Positions 14,107 to 45,931 of a DNA stretch of 48,746 nucleotides are shown here, one piece after another. The stretch covers positions 1-48,746 of the forward strand of contig JAQTXJ010000007.1 of NCBI GenBank assembly GCA_028688815.1, given 5' to 3'. Position 1 is the stretch's first letter, and each line of letters starts with the position of its first letter. The notes beneath the pieces are model-generated. The model saw only the letters and a list, made by a program, of their open reading frames with translations. It was not told the DNA's origin and searched no databases. The stretch comes from a bacterium. GTDB lineage: Bacteria > Hydrothermota > UBA3073 > JACQXS01 > JAQTXJ01. A program made the position numbers and the translations under genes.

Positions 14107-14251
14107 CAAAATATTGTATTTCCCTGTCCTGTTTATCTGCGAATATCTGCGTCCAAGAATTTTTTGTCTTCTAATCTTTTCTTAGCGTCTTTGCGACTTA
14201 GCGTGAGAAATTATCTGTTTTTTATTGTTTTTAATCTCTTAAATTCTTAGC

Positions 14252-14460
14252 AAGCCCTTTCCAGCTACGCTGGATTACTTACAATCCCTTATGCTAATTA
14301 GGGAAAAGATTGTTGAGCATTGGCGAAATCCCGTCTAGGCTGGATTGTCCGGAATTTTTTGCCGGAGGGATTTCTTAGAAACTCTTAGGCGTTAGCCTTA
14401 GAGTTTTTTATCCCGTAGCGAAGCGTTGGATATCCCGCAAAGCGGGGCTTTCAATCCCTG
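14252..14460 (+). repeat. composite multi-hairpin intergenic element
   Basis: AAGCCCTTTCCAGCTACGCTGG...AATCCCTTATGCTAATTAGGGA...CCGGAATTTTTTGCCGG AGGGATT then AAACTCT...AGAGTTT TTTATCC; first 53 bp identical to 23526-23578. Confidence 0.85.
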
Positions 14461-15552: not shown

Positions 15553-15670
15553 CTCCCCTCCTCCCTATATTTCAACTCTTATTTTTTCTGTTTTTCTTAT
15601 AATCCTGTTAATCCTGTCTTATTCCTCTGCGATCTCTGCGTTTTTTTGTTCTGTGGTAATCTTCTATACT

Positions 15671-18315: not shown

Positions 18316-18594
18316 TGCTTAAATGTCTTTCTTCTGCTGCCCATGCCGACTTTTTTGTCTAATCCTGTAAATCCTGTCTAATTTCTGTCATCTGTTTATT
18401 TTTTAACCCTATAATTTCCCGTTCTTTGTATACTCTGTGTTCTCAGTGGTTTTTATTTGTTTTCTGTGATAATCCGTGACAATATTATCTGTTTTCTTGT
18501 CTCTTGAAATCTCTTTAGATCCCTGTTGAAATTTAATGTTTTCTGTGTAATCTTGTGGTTTAATGTTTTTTTTCTCTGCGGTGAATCCTTCTGT

Positions 18595-22238: not shown

Positions 22239-22348
22239 CAACCTCTGTAAGGGTAGGTTGGGGCATTAGTCCAACTTGCCATGTTCTGTTGGGAATTCTC
22301 TTTTAATCCCTGTTAACTTTTTCTGTTATTCGTGTTTATTCGCGTTTA

Positions 22349-22409
22349 GTTGGACTTTAGTTCTGCGTTAGCGGAAATTTAGTCCAACTTATACCTGTTT
22401 TAAACAGGT
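22349..22409 (+). repeat. two-hairpin intergenic element
   Basis: GTTGGACT (22349-22356)/AGTCCAAC (22381-22388), TTATACC, then ACCTGTTT-T-AAACAGGT. Confidence 0.8.
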
Positions 22410-23357: not shown

Positions 23358-23390
23358 ATGGCTATATATATAAATTCGCCGTTTGGGTAG
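23358..23390 (+). pseudogene. truncated duplicate of gene start (MAIYINSPFG*)
   Basis: ATGGCTATATATATAAATTCGCCGTTTGGGTAG; same 29 bp as the start of the 23672 gene. Confidence 0.75.
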
Positions 23391-23392
23391 GA

Positions 23393-23429
23393 AGCCCTTG
23401 AGTCCGCTTCAAGCGGACGATTAGGGATT
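23393..23429 (+). repeat. AAGCCCT...AGGGATT hairpin element
   Basis: AAGCCCTTGAGTCCGCTTCAAGCGGACGATTAGGGATT; inner GTCCGCTTCAAGCGGAC palindrome. Confidence 0.8.
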
Positions 23430-23520
23430 GCTATCCGTGTTGAATGCGTAAACTATTAATTTGTCTGTTGAAACAGGTAAAAGGAGGTGTTATGGCTATA
23501 TATATAAATTCGCCGTTTGG
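23423..23520 (+). repeat. 98-bp direct repeat, copy 1 (5' UTR + RBS + start of 23672 gene)
   Basis: Identical to 23603-23700 by line-by-line comparison. Confidence 0.95.
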
Positions 23521-23524
23521 GTAG
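23492..23524 (+). pseudogene. second truncated duplicate of gene start (MAIYINSPFG*) with intact AGGAGG
   Basis: AAAGGAGGTGTTATGGCTATATATATAAATTCGCCGTTTGGGTAG. Confidence 0.8.
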
Positions 23525-23525
23525 G

Positions 23526-23609
23526 AAGCCCTTTCCAGCTACGCTGGATTACTTACAATCCCTTATGCTAATTAGGGATTGTTGTCCGGAATTTTTTACC
23601 GGAGGGATT
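23526..23609 (+). repeat. AAGCCCT...AGGGATT multi-hairpin element
   Basis: Contains CCAGC-TAC-GCTGG, CAATCCCT...AGGGATTG and TCCGG...CCGGA hairpins. Confidence 0.88.
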
Positions 23610-23700
23610 GCTATCCGTGTTGAATGCGTAAACTATTAATTTGTCTGTTGAAACAGGTAAAAGGAGGTGTTATGGCTATATATATAAATTCGCCGTTTGG
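23603..23700 (+). repeat. 98-bp direct repeat, copy 2
   Basis: Identical to 23423-23520, offset 180 bp. Confidence 0.95.
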
Positions 23701-24448
23701 AGAGATTAGAGGTAAACTTGGTGGAGTCGTCGGCACAAGATTGCGAGGTAAAAAAATCGTAAGAATTTATAGAAAACCTAAGAAAGATCCCGGCAGTATA
23801 GCCTTACTTAAAGAACTGAAAAAAGGTAAAATATCCGCTAAAGAAATGAATATCAAAATAGTAAACGTTCGGTTTTTGTTTAAGTTCTTTTCAGGTATGT
23901 CTAAACAGAAATATTCTTCTATTATAGTTCCCGTATGGTCCAACATAGCAAAAGTCTACCAGAACACTCCTTCAAATATGATACATAAATTTAATGTCCC
24001 TGTTTTGTTTAATTCTATACCTGATAAAAATAAACTTTGCGATGAAACAAATATTTTTGATGTGTCGAAAATTGCTTTTACACCGGAAACTTATACACCC
24101 CCCTTTTCCATATCTTCAAACTATAATCCGGAAACCGGGGAAATAAAAGTAAGCTGGCAGGTTACCAAATGGTTTTATGATGCCAAACCTGAAGATAAAG
24201 TCTTTTGCATAGCGGTGTATTTTAAACCAAAATCTCTTTTACTATGGGAACCCAAGAAAGACCCCTGGAATATTTTCAAAATATGGGGAACTGCATTAGT
24301 TCCTGTCGCGCAGTGGAAAGATGAACAAGCTTCTTTGCCAATAGACCCGAATCTTAAACCCGAATACCTGACTACTTTTTTCTTCTTTCAATACTCGAAT
24401 AAACGATATTCAACAACCTATTCCGCCAAACAGGAAGCATTTGCCTAA
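23672..24448 (+). CDS. hypothetical protein (DUF6266-like)
   Basis: AAAGGAGG upstream of ATG; MAIYINSPFGEIRGKLGGVVGTRLRGKKIVRIYRKPKK; start refined from ORF track (23624). Confidence 0.75.
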   Translation: MAIYINSPFGEIRGKLGGVVGTRLRGKKIVRIYRKPKKDPGSIALLKELKKGKISAKEMNIKIVNVRFLFKFFSGMSKQKYSSIIVPVWSNIAKVYQNTPSNMIHKFNVPVLFNSIPDKNKLCDETNIFDVSKIAFTPETYTPPFSISSNYNPETGEIKVSWQVTKWFYDAKPEDKVFCIAVYFKPKSLLLWEPKKDPWNIFKIWGTALVPVAQWKDEQASLPIDPNLKPEYLTTFFFFQYSNKRYSTTYSAKQEAFA

Positions 24449-24574: not shown

Positions 24575-24758
24575 TCTTTCCTGTTTATCTGTCGTATATG
24601 TCCTATATGACTTATTCCCTTCTGTCATTGGGTAGAGGGCGAGCCCTCGCTCTCATATCTTTCTATTTTTGCCTGCCTTTTTGTCATTCTGAGGCGAAGA
24701 CGAAGAATCTCTTTGTTCCTGTTCTTCTTTCTTCTTTCTTCCTCACTCAACTTATAGA

Positions 24759-24834
24759 AAGCCCTTGCCTGCCCGCCGATTTTCTTGGAGGGAAGCTTTA
24801 GCGATTAGGGATTCGTATCCAGCTTAGCTGGGCT
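24759..24834 (+). repeat. AAGCCCT...AGGGATT-TATCCAGC element overlapping gltX 3' end
   Basis: AAGCCCT...AGGGATT CG TATCCAGC-TTA-GCTGGGCTT. Confidence 0.8.
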
Positions 24835-28786: not shown

Positions 28787-28919
28787 TTGCCTTGAATTTA
28801 GTTAACAAACTTATTATATCTTAACTCTTTCCATATTTGAAGTTCTGTAATAATTCTCTGTGCTCTCTGCTTTTTCTCTCTTTTTCTGTTATTTTTTAAC
28901 CTTCTATTCTCTTTTTTTA

Positions 28920-28974
28920 GTTGGAGTTTGTTTTATCAAAAACATTACTCCAACTTATCCAGCTCAGCTGGGCT
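28920..28974 (+). repeat. two-hairpin element
   Basis: GTTGGAGT (28920-28927)/ACTCCAAC (28947-28954), TTATCCAGC-TCA-GCTGGGCT. Confidence 0.85.
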
Positions 28975-32715: not shown

Positions 32716-33159
32716 CTACCGTATTCCCTTCACCCTATCCCCTACTTTCACATTATGTCTTCTAAACCACCCCTGGTTTACTTCTATGGCATATTTAACG
32801 GGTATTATGGACATATGAAAACTTACAGTATCAAGAGGCGCCATATCTTCTATCTGGACTATTTTTTTGTTTTCTGTAATAAAAGCAATAGATAAAGGGA
32901 TATACGTGTTTTTCATCCAGAAAGAGTGATAATCTGGTTCCTTAAAAACAAAAAGCATTCCCTTGTTTTCCTGCATTTTTTTGCGATACATAAGTCCACG
33001 TGCCATTGTAGCAGGTGTATTTACTATTTCTACCTGTAACCCGGAATTTCCTACCTTTATTTTATGCAATTGAGTGTTTTTGAAACCAAATCCCCAGAAA
33101 AGTCCGGCAACTACTATAACCAAACCCGCCATTTTTAATTTTTTAGAATCCATACTCAT
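32716..33159 (-). CDS. DUF192 family protein
   Basis: MARGLMYRKKMQENKGMLFVFKEPDYHSFWMKNTYIPLSIAFI. Confidence 0.9.
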   Translation of the reverse strand: MSMDSKKLKMAGLVIVVAGLFWGFGFKNTQLHKIKVGNSGLQVEIVNTPATMARGLMYRKKMQENKGMLFVFKEPDYHSFWMKNTYIPLSIAFITENKKIVQIEDMAPLDTVSFHMSIIPVKYAIEVNQGWFRRHNVKVGDRVKGIR

Positions 33160-33330
33160 ATTTTGATGGTATATTAATTTGCTATAATGTCAATAAATTA
33201 TCCCCATTCTTCTTTTCCTTTCTCTTCTCTGTGCTCTCCTTTTTCTCTCTGTGCTATCTATAGTTTTTGTTTTATTTTTTTCCTGTTATTTTTAACTTTC
33301 TACTGCTTTTATATCCTGTTAATCCTGTTT

Positions 33331-33377
33331 AGAAGCTCTTTGCTTGTTTAGAGCTTCTTATCCAGCTCTGCTGGGCT
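33331..33377 (+). repeat. two-hairpin element
   Basis: AGAAGCTCT (33331-33339)/AGAGCTTCT (33350-33358), TATCCAGC-TCT-GCTGGGCT. Confidence 0.88.
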
Positions 33378-33520
33378 AAATTTTCTTATTCTAATTTTCT
33401 TTTCTCTGTGTACTCTGTGGTTAGATTTTTCTGTTCTCTGCGGTGAAGAATTTTTATCTGTTTTTCTGTTACAATTAGTTACAATCTATCTCTACTTGTT
33501 ACCATTTATTACTATCCCCA

Positions 33521-34660
33521 CTAATACATATCAAACCTGACCAATCTCCCATCCAGCGGACCATTCATCAGCGGCTTTTTCCATCGAGGCTTTAATCCGA
33601 TTTTCGAAATCAATTCCCTGTCCCCAAAATAAATATATGCTTCCGCCCCTTTACATTTCTGCTTTAAGAAATCTCCTAAGTCTTTATACAACTCCGCAAC
33701 TTCATCCTTTTCGCCTGTACGAATTCCATAAGGCGGGTTACATACTATGATAAAATTTTCCAGACTTTTAATATTCTTAAAACTCAATATGCTAATCTTT
33801 ATCTTATCGCTGCACGGTAAATTACGAATATTGTTTCTTGTGTATTTTATTGCCTGTCCGGAAATATCACACCCCGAAATCATTCCATCCGGCAGTTCAC
33901 GGGAGTTTGATTTCGCCTCATTTTTTACCCCTTCCCATATATTCTTATCGAAATCCGGCAATAATTCAAATCCAAACCGTTTCCTGAAAATTCCCGCAGG
34001 AACTCTGCAGTAGTTTATCAATGCTTCGCTAATCAGTGTTCCCGACCCGCACATTATATCATAAATAGGTTTTGAACCATCCCATCCCGTAAACTTAATG
34101 ATTGCCGCCGCCAATGTTTCCTGCATAGGGGCTTCAACGGCTTCTTTTCGATATCCCCTGCGATGTAACGACCCGCCTGAGGTGTCAAAGTTTATGGTTG
34201 CCCTGTTATTTTCAATATGCAGGTTCAACCAGACGTCAGGTTTCTCAGTATCAATATTCGGTCTTTTATCAAATTTCTCTCTGAAATAATCTGCAATCGC
34301 ATCTTTCAGACAAAGCGCCGCATAATGGGAATGCCCAATTTTACTGTTGGATACGTTCGCAAATATTGCAAACGTATTATCTACACTTAAAAACTCGCTC
34401 CATTCTATTGTCTTTGCTTTTCTATAAAGATATGGAGTATTATGGCATAAAAAAGATGTCAATGGAGCTAAAACTCTCGTAACAAGTTGGGACATATAAT
34501 TTATCTTATATAAGGTAGCTTTGTCCGCCCCGAAATAAATTCCCCTGTAAGCAGGTACAATGTCTTTTGCGCCAAAATCTGACAGTTCTTTAATAGCCAG
34601 TTCCTCTATTCCTGTGGAGATTTGAGCAAAAAACCTATTTGTTGTCTGGTATTCAAGCAT
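33521..34660 (-). CDS. THUMP-domain class I SAM-dependent RNA methyltransferase (RlmL N-terminal/Trm-like)
   Basis: DTSGGSLHRRGYRKEAVEAPMQETLAAAIIKFTGW; MCGSGTLISEAL; IVCNPPYGIR. Confidence 0.92.
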   Translation of the reverse strand: MLEYQTTNRFFAQISTGIEELAIKELSDFGAKDIVPAYRGIYFGADKATLYKINYMSQLVTRVLAPLTSFLCHNTPYLYRKAKTIEWSEFLSVDNTFAIFANVSNSKIGHSHYAALCLKDAIADYFREKFDKRPNIDTEKPDVWLNLHIENNRATINFDTSGGSLHRRGYRKEAVEAPMQETLAAAIIKFTGWDGSKPIYDIMCGSGTLISEALINYCRVPAGIFRKRFGFELLPDFDKNIWEGVKNEAKSNSRELPDGMISGCDISGQAIKYTRNNIRNLPCSDKIKISILSFKNIKSLENFIIVCNPPYGIRTGEKDEVAELYKDLGDFLKQKCKGAEAYIYFGDRELISKIGLKPRWKKPLMNGPLDGRLVRFDMY

Positions 34661-34890: not shown

Positions 34891-35150
34891 AAGTTTGCAT
34901 AAATTAACAAGATAATTTAACTCGTCAATCTTTTTTCGTAAGAGTTGTTAATTCTTTTTTTAAATTACCCCGCCCTTTAGAGCGGGGGTATAAAACAATC
35001 TCCTACCTGTGCTAGTCTTTCGGGCTTTAGCGCATAAGTAGTATAATTTTCTGTTATTTGCGTCCATTCGCGGATAAATCTTTTCGTTCTTTGTTCGTTT
35101 TTTGTCCCTAAAATTTTTCTGTTTTTTCTTTAGTCCGTATAAATCCGTTT

Positions 35151-35260
35151 ACAAACTCTTGGGGAACAACCCTTAGAGTTTGTTATCCAGTACGAAGCCC
35201 TTGGAACTTTAGCTCTTAGGGATTCGTATCCAGCCCTCTGGGCTCAGCTGGGGTCTTTTA
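35151..35260 (+). repeat. tandem pair of hairpin elements
   Basis: ACAAACTCT (35151-35159)/AGAGTTTGT (35175-35183) TATCCAG, then AAGCCCT (35195-35201)/AGGGATT (35218-35224) CG TATCCAGC...GCTGG. Confidence 0.88.
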
Positions 35261-35414
35261 TCCGTGGCTATAATGTATTTCGTTTCTTTATTTTCAATCC
35301 TGTTAATCCCGTCTAAATTTTCTGTATTGTATTCTGTTCTCTTTTTAATCTTATGAAAATCTGTGTAATCTTGTGGTTAATCTTTTTCTTAAGTTGTCTG
35401 TTACAAAATATTCC

Positions 35415-36536: not shown

Positions 36537-36640
36537 AAGCCCTTGGAGCTTTAGCAATTACTTACAAGCCCTTATGCTAATTAGGGATTGTTGTCCGGAA
36601 TCTTTTACCGGAGGGATTTCTATCCAGCTCCGCGGGGGTA
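36537..36640 (+). repeat. multi-hairpin element (AAGCCCT...AGGGATT-TATCCAGC)
   Basis: AAGCCCTTGGAGC...CAAGCCCTTATGCTAATTAGGGATTG TTG TCCGGAATCTTTTACCGGA GGGATT TC TATCCAGC; closely matches 23526-23609. Confidence 0.88.
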
Positions 36641-38050: not shown

Positions 38051-38107
38051 ACATTCTCTTTTTGCCCATTGGGCAAATTAGAGAATGTTATCCAGCTTTG
38101 CTGGGCA
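38051..38107 (+). repeat. two-hairpin element
   Basis: ACATTCTCT (38051-38059)/AGAGAATGT (38080-38088) with inner TTGCCC-ATT-GGGCAA, TATCCAGC-TTT-GCTGGGCA. Confidence 0.88.
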
Positions 38108-45082: not shown

Positions 45083-45931
45083 TTACCTGTCAAAAGATTG
45101 CGACGGACAGAAAGCAAGCCCCCATGTTCCTGGTCCTGCATGTGTTCCAACGACTCCACCGATTATGCTTGTAATGTTAGTTTTGCATTCAAAATTTTCC
45201 ATTAACATTTTCTCAAGTTCTTTTGTTTTGTCCTCGCACTCTGCATTTATTAAGATAGTATCTATAGAGCTTTTACCTACAATTCCGGATATAAGCTCTT
45301 TGTACTTCGGGAGCACCTTTTTTGAACCACGGATTTTCTCAGCAGGAACAATAATCCCTTCCTTAAAAGAAAGAATGGGAATTATATGTAAAATACTTCC
45401 GAGCAGGCTTTGCGCTTTACCTATCCTGCCACCTTTTTCAAGATGCTTTAAATTCTCAACAGTAAAATATATTATGATTTTATGCTTTAACTGGTTAACA
45501 AGCTGAATTATTTGCTCTTTCTCCCATCCAGCCTTTACCGCTTTTGCAGCATAAAGTACAAGTAACCCCAGTCCTACGGAAACCATCCCGGAATCTATTA
45601 TTGTTATATCTTTTGAGGTTGATTTTTTTGCAAGGTTTGCAGATTCACAGGTCCCGCTTAACTTGCTTGATATGTGAATTGATATTACAGTATCTTCTTG
45701 TATCGCGGTATATCTATCTATAAAATCTTTTGGAGTCGGTTGTGAAGTTGTGGGTAACCCATAAGGCTCAAATTCCCGTAGTTTACGGTAAAACTCTTCT
45801 TTGGAAATATCTATACCTTCTTTATATACTTTATCTCCAAAAGTTATATACAGAGGAATGACTTCTATGTTATACTCCCTGTATAAATCCTTTGATAAAT
45901 CTGCAGTACTGTCTGTTATTATTTTTATCAT
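45083..45931 (-). CDS. DegV family fatty-acid-binding protein
   Basis: IKIITDSTADLSKDL...TTSQPTPKDF...ISSKLSGTCESANLA...GGRIGKAQSLLGSIL...GGVVGTHAGPGTWG. Confidence 0.93.
   Translation of the reverse strand: MIKIITDSTADLSKDLYREYNIEVIPLYITFGDKVYKEGIDISKEEFYRKLREFEPYGLPTTSQPTPKDFIDRYTAIQEDTVISIHISSKLSGTCESANLAKKSTSKDITIIDSGMVSVGLGLLVLYAAKAVKAGWEKEQIIQLVNQLKHKIIIYFTVENLKHLEKGGRIGKAQSLLGSILHIIPILSFKEGIIVPAEKIRGSKKVLPKYKELISGIVGKSSIDTILINAECEDKTKELEKMLMENFECKTNITSIIGGVVGTHAGPGTWGLAFCPSQSFDR

Follow-up and report, generated by a model that had tools for sequence, protein, structure and literature searches.

A family of short units, each made of a left hairpin, a TAT hinge and a right hairpin, is dispersed through the genome that contains the window (the whole 48,746-nt stretch of DNA analysed), is polymorphic in its insertions between sister species and inserts cleanly, without target duplication. 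These properties are shown by sequence comparison, as are the recurrent landing of units at TT|A just inside the 3' arm of another unit, nesting in one orientation and the covariation of the stems. On balance, with no great margin of confidence, the units are best interpreted as non-autonomous mobile DNA elements; that they move as folded single-stranded DNA is inferred.

Units are ~45-60 nt long and follow one plan, in which a TT is followed by a 9-bp outer stem (often carrying an apical hairpin), the TAT hinge and a short second hairpin, mostly CCAGC-NNN-GCTGG. The consensus derived from ~110 clean copies, plus an alignment of 42, is TT | A-N7-T (9-bp stem) - TT - (apical hairpin, in many) - (A)TT - A-N7'-T - TAT - CCAGC NNN GCTGG - (G). 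The TT on the left flank is almost invariant, although it was ignored in copy selection. Class A arms are typified by AGTTGGACT and class B arms by xxAAGCCCT/AGGGATTxx; the latter frequently contain a G-A mismatch and mostly begin with ATA, which is able to pair with the TAT hinge. The window contains the following copies and composites, with the supporting analyses in brackets:

33331..33374, + strand: reference unit; 9-bp stem AGAAGCTCT/AGAGCTTCT, TAT, CCAGC-TCT-GCTGG (arms, folding, scan)
28919..28971, + strand: class A unit; AGTTGGAGT/ACTCCAACT, apical hairpin, TAT, CCAGC-TCA-GCTGG (folding, scan)
22348..22409, + strand: class A unit; AGTTGGACT/AGTCCAACT, TAT, divergent hairpin 2 ACCTGTT-TTA-AACAGGT (folding, scan)
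38051..38104, + strand: unit; ACATTCTCT/AGAGAATGT, apical hairpin, TAT, CCAGC-TTT-GCTGG (folding, scan)
35151..35251, + strand: unit with arms ACAAACTCT/AGAGTTTGT, its hairpin 2 (CCAG...CTCAGCTGG) interrupted by a class B unit (arms, folding)
35191..35242, + strand: the inserted class B unit; TA-CGAAGCCCT/AGGGATTCG-TAT-CCAGC-CCT-CTGG(G) (folding, scan)
24754..24831, + strand: class B unit with an imperfect outer stem (GAAAGCCCTT...TTAGGGATTCG), TAT, CCAGC-TTA-GCTGG
14250..14449, + strand: degenerate nested class B/C composite; AAACTCT/AGAGTTT at 14379-14406, ending TAT-CCCGC-AAA-GCGGG (folding)
36557..36639, + strand: degenerate class B/C composite (families D8 and D9), terminating in TATCCAGCTCCGCGGGG
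23387..23618, + strand: two class B-like units, the second with a nested class C unit, within a tandemly repeated gene start ATGGCTATATATATAAATTCGCCGTTTGG

The reference unit lies between a DUF192 gene (32716-33159, - strand) and a THUMP/RlmL-like methyltransferase gene (33521-34660, - strand). When folded as single-stranded DNA, the loci at 22348, 28919, 33331 and 38051 each form two adjoining hairpins, and those at 35150 and 14378 adopt more complex structures; the z-scores for DNA folding range from -4.2 to -8.2 across the six. A structure scan, in which TAT was fixed between two hairpins whose sequence was left free, recovered five family units on the + strand of the window (22348-22409, 28919-28971, 33331-33374, 35193-35241 and 38051-38104) and one further match at 45253 (- strand) that is probably due to chance; block-shuffled windows yielded 0-1 units each. 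In 840 kb of the genome of the sister species, the same scan found 44 units, compared with 7 in shuffled DNA and with 3-17 when any of twelve alternative trinucleotides replaced TAT as the hinge. The second stem was of the CC..GG kind in 36 of these 44 units (CCAGC/GCTGG, CCCGC/GCGGG, CCAAC/GTTGG, CCAGT/ACTGG or a shortened form). A search of the window against Rfam 15 returned no match above the gathering score for the units, the sole match being a tRNA.

An earlier note on the window, made from sequence alone, had proposed from six complementary arm pairs a family that is defined structurally and not through the sequence of its stems. All six pairs were found in place, and the structural definition held, with genome-wide copies showing significant covariation. 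The note's claim that TATCC is conserved after the stem held only in part: TAT is the constant element, and CC is the foot of the second stem, which varies more slowly. This follows from the unit at 22349, where stem 2 is ACCTGTT/AACAGGT yet the hinge is still TAT, and the other variants of hairpin 2 agree. Two loci required amendment; that at 35151, read as one unit, harbours a second unit (35191-35242) in its hairpin 2 (CCAG|...|CTCAGCTGG), and that at 14379 is part of a degenerate nested composite. The note held that its reading would fail if there were no excess of covariation or if the hinge linkage were lost outside the window; neither proved to be the case, given dozens of copies genome-wide.

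Covariation of the outer stem is pronounced. In the alignment of 42 copies, the outermost A-T and innermost T-A pairs are invariant and all seven pairs between them covary (7 of the 9 pairs; 113 two-sided cells against 34.4 +- 5.5 in shuffles), with a covariation score of 0.510 that falls to at most 0.106 when the arms are slid. Copy selection is excluded as the cause by a held-out test, in which copies were anchored by the inner five pairs only and the outer four played no part in selection: on average 3.45 of these 4 outer pairs were Watson-Crick, whereas shuffling the partners gave 2.23 +- 0.14, and the copies included 17 distinct arms with complete pairing. Paired change can also be observed at single loci shared by the two species. 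Between L030 in one species and L089 in the other, a C-G pair of the outer stem corresponds to T-A (AGCTAGACT/AGTCTAGCT in L030, AGTTAGACT/AGTCTAACT in L089), and between L048 and its sister counterpart an A-T pair corresponds to C-G (ACAAGCCC../..GATTGT in L048, CCAAGCCC../..GATTGG in the sister), the entire apical hairpin also having been replaced. At the shared locus L081/L226, the difference is confined to one arm. Paired changes within so short a time would favour arm-to-arm templating or replacement of the unit over two independent selected mutations, though this is inferred.

Mobility is indicated by comparison of the two genomes, which are ~90% identical overall. A ~60-kb region of the sister genome aligns collinearly with the window (~75-98% identity per block), yet the intergenic units mostly differ between them and few loci are common to both species. 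Three pairs of filled and empty sites were identified (L219/L077, L030/L089 and L128/L069, filled first). In the cleanest, L219/L077, a 47-nt unit sits exactly between ATT and ACTCC without target duplication, its junctions reading ...AGAAACATT|ATAGGAAGCTC...CCTATCCTAAGG|ACTCCAACTTATCC... At L080 and its counterpart, one unit is common to both species and an adjoining class A unit is present in one only. The direction of change at polymorphic sites is inferred to be insertion from the rarity of nested units, there being no outgroup; precise excision could yield an identical picture of filled and empty sites, and would likewise imply mobility.

Among the 13 nested composites in the fetched DNA, the inner unit shares the orientation of the outer in every case (13 of 13, none opposite) and lies after TT, immediately before the outer 3' arm (TT|A). 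Nesting reaches three levels at L065 and L097. A second recurrent landing site lies inside hairpin 2 (CCAG|...|CNNNGCTGG) and is occupied in the window at 35191-35242 and at L067 and L019. Tandem duplications are also present (L001/L104; window 23358-23713). The earlier note had inferred selection or a copying mechanism acting on structure, which holds, with copying the better supported arm since the sister genomes show gains of units at exact positions and, within one locus, outer stems altered in a paired fashion; one-orientation nesting, and a bias associated with the replication strand rather than with transcription, were absent from that note. Because two such closely related genomes offer natural filled and empty sites as well as stems altered on both arms at one locus, the way in which palindromic repeats spread in bacteria, and the reason for stem covariation in the absence of an obvious function, become directly open to test.

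The pattern TATCCAGC-N-GCTGG occurs 87 times in the 2.67-Mb genome of the window, so that at least this many units are present, whereas the reversed-pattern control occurs once. About 80 copies are found in the sister species of the same genus. Of the 147 genomes searched in the phylum, these are the only two above chance level; the remaining 145 have 0-3 copies each. A search of GTDB gave 42 hits to the pattern; about half were single matches, mostly in apparent coding sequence, which we take to be chance. The pattern is abundant in Candidatus Aminicenantes LacPavin (10 copies) and in Deltaproteobacteria RIFOXYD12_FULL_57_12 (28) and DBS2-1.bin30 (11), and occurs singly in Desulfovibrio Madre1 and in Tharpella. 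Outer stems in these hosts from other phyla are unrelated in sequence, yet abut TAT in the same manner (AGAGCCTTA/TAAGGCTCT, AGTCCCTTA/TAAGGGACT, AGAGCCTCT/AGAGGCTCT, AGTGCCTCT/AGAGGCACT), and in RIFOXYD12 one unit is nested behind the CTTA of another. Copies in MB3D_Bin_18 (G032) have the right hairpin in common with the family, but a 9-bp outer stem could not be confirmed in them.

The orientation of the units appears to follow replication rather than genes. Per 20-kb stretch within the genus, it correlates with the GC3 skew of genes (rho -0.61, p 4e-4; neighbouring stretches are not independent), separately among + and among - genes; gene direction shows no such correlation (rho -0.22, p 0.26). 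The correlation was initially computed on GC skew that took in pyrimidine-rich intergenic repeats, and it survived recomputation on the third codon positions of genes only. Intergenic pyrimidine content also correlates with orientation (rho 0.69), and the skew bias is thus confounded with pyrimidine-rich intergenic targets. No replication-strand bias was seen by a raw-skew test in the deltaproteobacterial host G031 (8 of 21). Units are mostly intergenic; those between tandem genes lie antisense in 23 cases and sense in 13, and others occur between divergent and between convergent genes. The G-rich strand is usually the leading strand, and if this applies here, the GGATA strand would lie on the lagging-strand template, on which IS200/IS605 elements are described to move (PMC6006769).

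In the proposed mechanism, which is inferred throughout, a unit would travel as a single DNA strand with both hairpins formed, and recognition would depend chiefly on this shape, aided by the constant positions (TT|A, the closing T-A pair, TAT and CC/GG). By analogy with TnpA acting on IS200/IS605 ends, an HUH-type or other single-strand recombinase may act in trans. Paired stem changes would arise when one arm is recopied from the other upon hairpin formation (hairpin-templated repair) and, alternatively or in addition, might persist through only folded copies being able to move. No candidate enzyme has been identified. A profile search for Y1 transposases (PF01797), conducted on 14 genomes, found no match in the genome of the window, which is 92% complete; it is possible that a Y1 gene is missing through incomplete assembly. 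Y1 transposases occur in relatives without units, and in other hosts the Y1 loci examined have no flanking units. The two Y1 genes of the sister species are flanked by their own GTAG palindromes and not by TAT-hinged units; these loci, L046 (G001:C2:339459-342785) and L259 (G001:C2:180500-186000), are ordinary REPtrons. No large autonomous version, in which a gene would separate the arms, was present in any of the fetched loci. No known enzyme therefore accounts for mobilization. Like CGTC-tagged REPs (PMC3733652), the units have no Y1 partner, which suggests that an unidentified enzyme moves them.

Several known systems resemble the units in part. REPs and REPINs, with their RAYT/TnpA-REP partners (PMC6006769; PMC3116915; PMC3733652), are likewise short intergenic palindromes of high copy number that are species-specific, are modelled to move as single strands and drift in sequence within a conserved fold. 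However, they comprise one hairpin (20-40 nt, often in inverted pairs) with a GTAG/CGTC tetranucleotide at its foot and often flank a Y1 gene, whereas the units have two hairpins, a TAT hinge, a TT|A site, nesting in their own stems and no cognate Y1 gene found. REP membership was rejected: aligned units have TT on the left and the TAT hinge, GTAG/CGTC is absent at every foot, nested copies share one orientation rather than forming inverted pairs, and units do not flank the Y1 genes at the loci examined. Similarity to the ends of IS200/IS605 elements extends to the presence of a left and a right hairpin, to insertion immediately 3' of a short target without duplicating it, and to an orientation tied to strand, which was seen in the genus but not in G031; a unit would resemble the two hairpins of such an element with nothing between them. 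Insertion without duplication at a fixed short target, as in IS200/IS605, is observed in the filled and empty pairs at ATT|A and in the nested composites; ends shared with an autonomous TnpA-encoding element were not found among the Y1 loci examined. The units further differ in lacking any TnpA gene or full-length relative found, in the free variability of their hairpins and in their only observed targets, namely TT|A and CCAG|C in hairpin 2. Double-hairpin elements of Allomyces mitochondria and repetitive hairpin-forming elements of sponges (PMC2800124) also vary in number or position between close relatives, lack flanking duplications and insert in tandem. The units match the double-hairpin elements in architecture only, as two adjoining hairpins that are dispersed and polymorphic between close relatives; these elements are mitochondrial, whereas the units lie in bacterial contigs, and in sponges stems are conserved and loops vary, whereas in the units stems vary by paired change while the hinge and the edges of the loops stay constant. 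Integron attC sites are structure-recognised single-stranded hairpins of variable sequence with GTTRRRY/RYYYAAC boxes, which class A arms resemble. They were rejected as an identity for the units, with the order RYYYAAC ... GTTRRRY reversed in class A and the boxes absent in class B; the units also lack gene cassettes. The earlier note's suggestion that the family is undescribed holds within the scope of Rfam and of the open-access literature searched (subscription journals were not covered), in which no TAT-hinged two-hairpin bacterial family was found.

Four alternative explanations were weighed. That the units are ordinary REP elements mobilized in trans by a RAYT is consistent with their palindromic, intergenic, genus-specific and strand-specific nature, their ~100 copies and the two Y1 proteins of the sister genome. 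This is nevertheless unlikely given the missing foot tag, the two hairpins and hinge in its place, the GTAG palindromes carried by the sister's own Y1 genes, and the lack both of a Y1 gene in the window's genome and of flanking units at the Y1 loci examined elsewhere. Passive spread by replication slippage or template switching with repeat recombination, without a dedicated enzyme and with pairing kept by quasi-palindrome correction, is supported by the existing nested palindromes and tandem duplications (L001/L104; window 23358-23713) and would account for paired changes without selection. It too is unlikely, as exact recurrent unit ends and the TT|A site at independent loci are hard to obtain without a site-specific nuclease or recombinase.

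The remaining two alternatives are given still less weight. A structured RNA selected for pairing, such as a 3'-UTR stabilizer, terminator or processing site, would be consistent with strong compensatory change and mostly intergenic location. Against it stand the excess of antisense units between tandem genes and their presence between divergent and convergent ones, orientation that follows GC3 skew rather than genes, the few loci common with the sister, the several units in one species only and the lack of an Rfam match, which together make it very unlikely; the earlier note's suggestion of transcripts or processing at the hairpins is similarly unsupported, orientation being uncoupled from genes. 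Movement through an RNA intermediate and reverse transcription, as suggested for mitochondrial double-hairpin elements and with a precedent proposed in Allomyces (cited in PMC2800124), fits structure-based recognition and the absence of target duplication, but is also very unlikely because orientation in the genus is tied to the replication strand and not to transcription. A mobile single-stranded DNA hairpin, REP- or IS200/IS605-like, fits better than a conserved RNA because of the clean nested insertions in one orientation and the orientation by strand skew, not by gene. The simplest form of this mobile-element reading is a stripped-down single-strand transposon or a REP-like element, though the units do not meet the criteria for REPs. 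A bolder form, towards which the evidence leans less than it leans away, is an undescribed cross-phylum class of minimal single-stranded transposable units, recognised by shape (hairpin - TAT - hairpin), preferring their own stem-loop junction (TT|A), nesting up to three levels, with stems rewritten by arm-to-arm templating and mobilized by an unidentified enzyme.

Other repeats were observed in the same DNA. At 23358-23713 of the window, a ~30-nt gene start ATGGCTATATATATAAATTCGCCGTTTGG (protein MAIYINSPFG) and its ribosome-binding region are present in three tandem copies. Class B-like hairpin units truncate the first and second of these at TTTGG, and the complete gene (23624-24448) matches nothing in Pfam. 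In MB3D_Bin_18, L192-L194 contain a dispersed repeat ending in TATCCAGCNNNGCTGG, with partly conserved flanks (e.g. ATCGATGCGTTATCC) and without a clear 9-bp outer stem. In Deltaproteobacteria DBS2-1.bin30 (G033), the TAT-hinged unit of L195-L199 lies within a larger ~200-nt palindrome (GTAAGCCATCACAGGG ... CCCTGTGATGGCTTAC), which is itself dispersed in that genome. Degenerate repeats with a strand bias, of the types AATCCTGTTAATCCTGT, CTCTGTGNNCTCTGTGG and ATCCGTGTTCATCCGTG, are also numerous in the intergenic DNA of the window (e.g. 15592-15629, 18352-18389, 33225-33250, 33416-33447 and 35287-35324), and hairpin units are often inserted into them in matching orientation.
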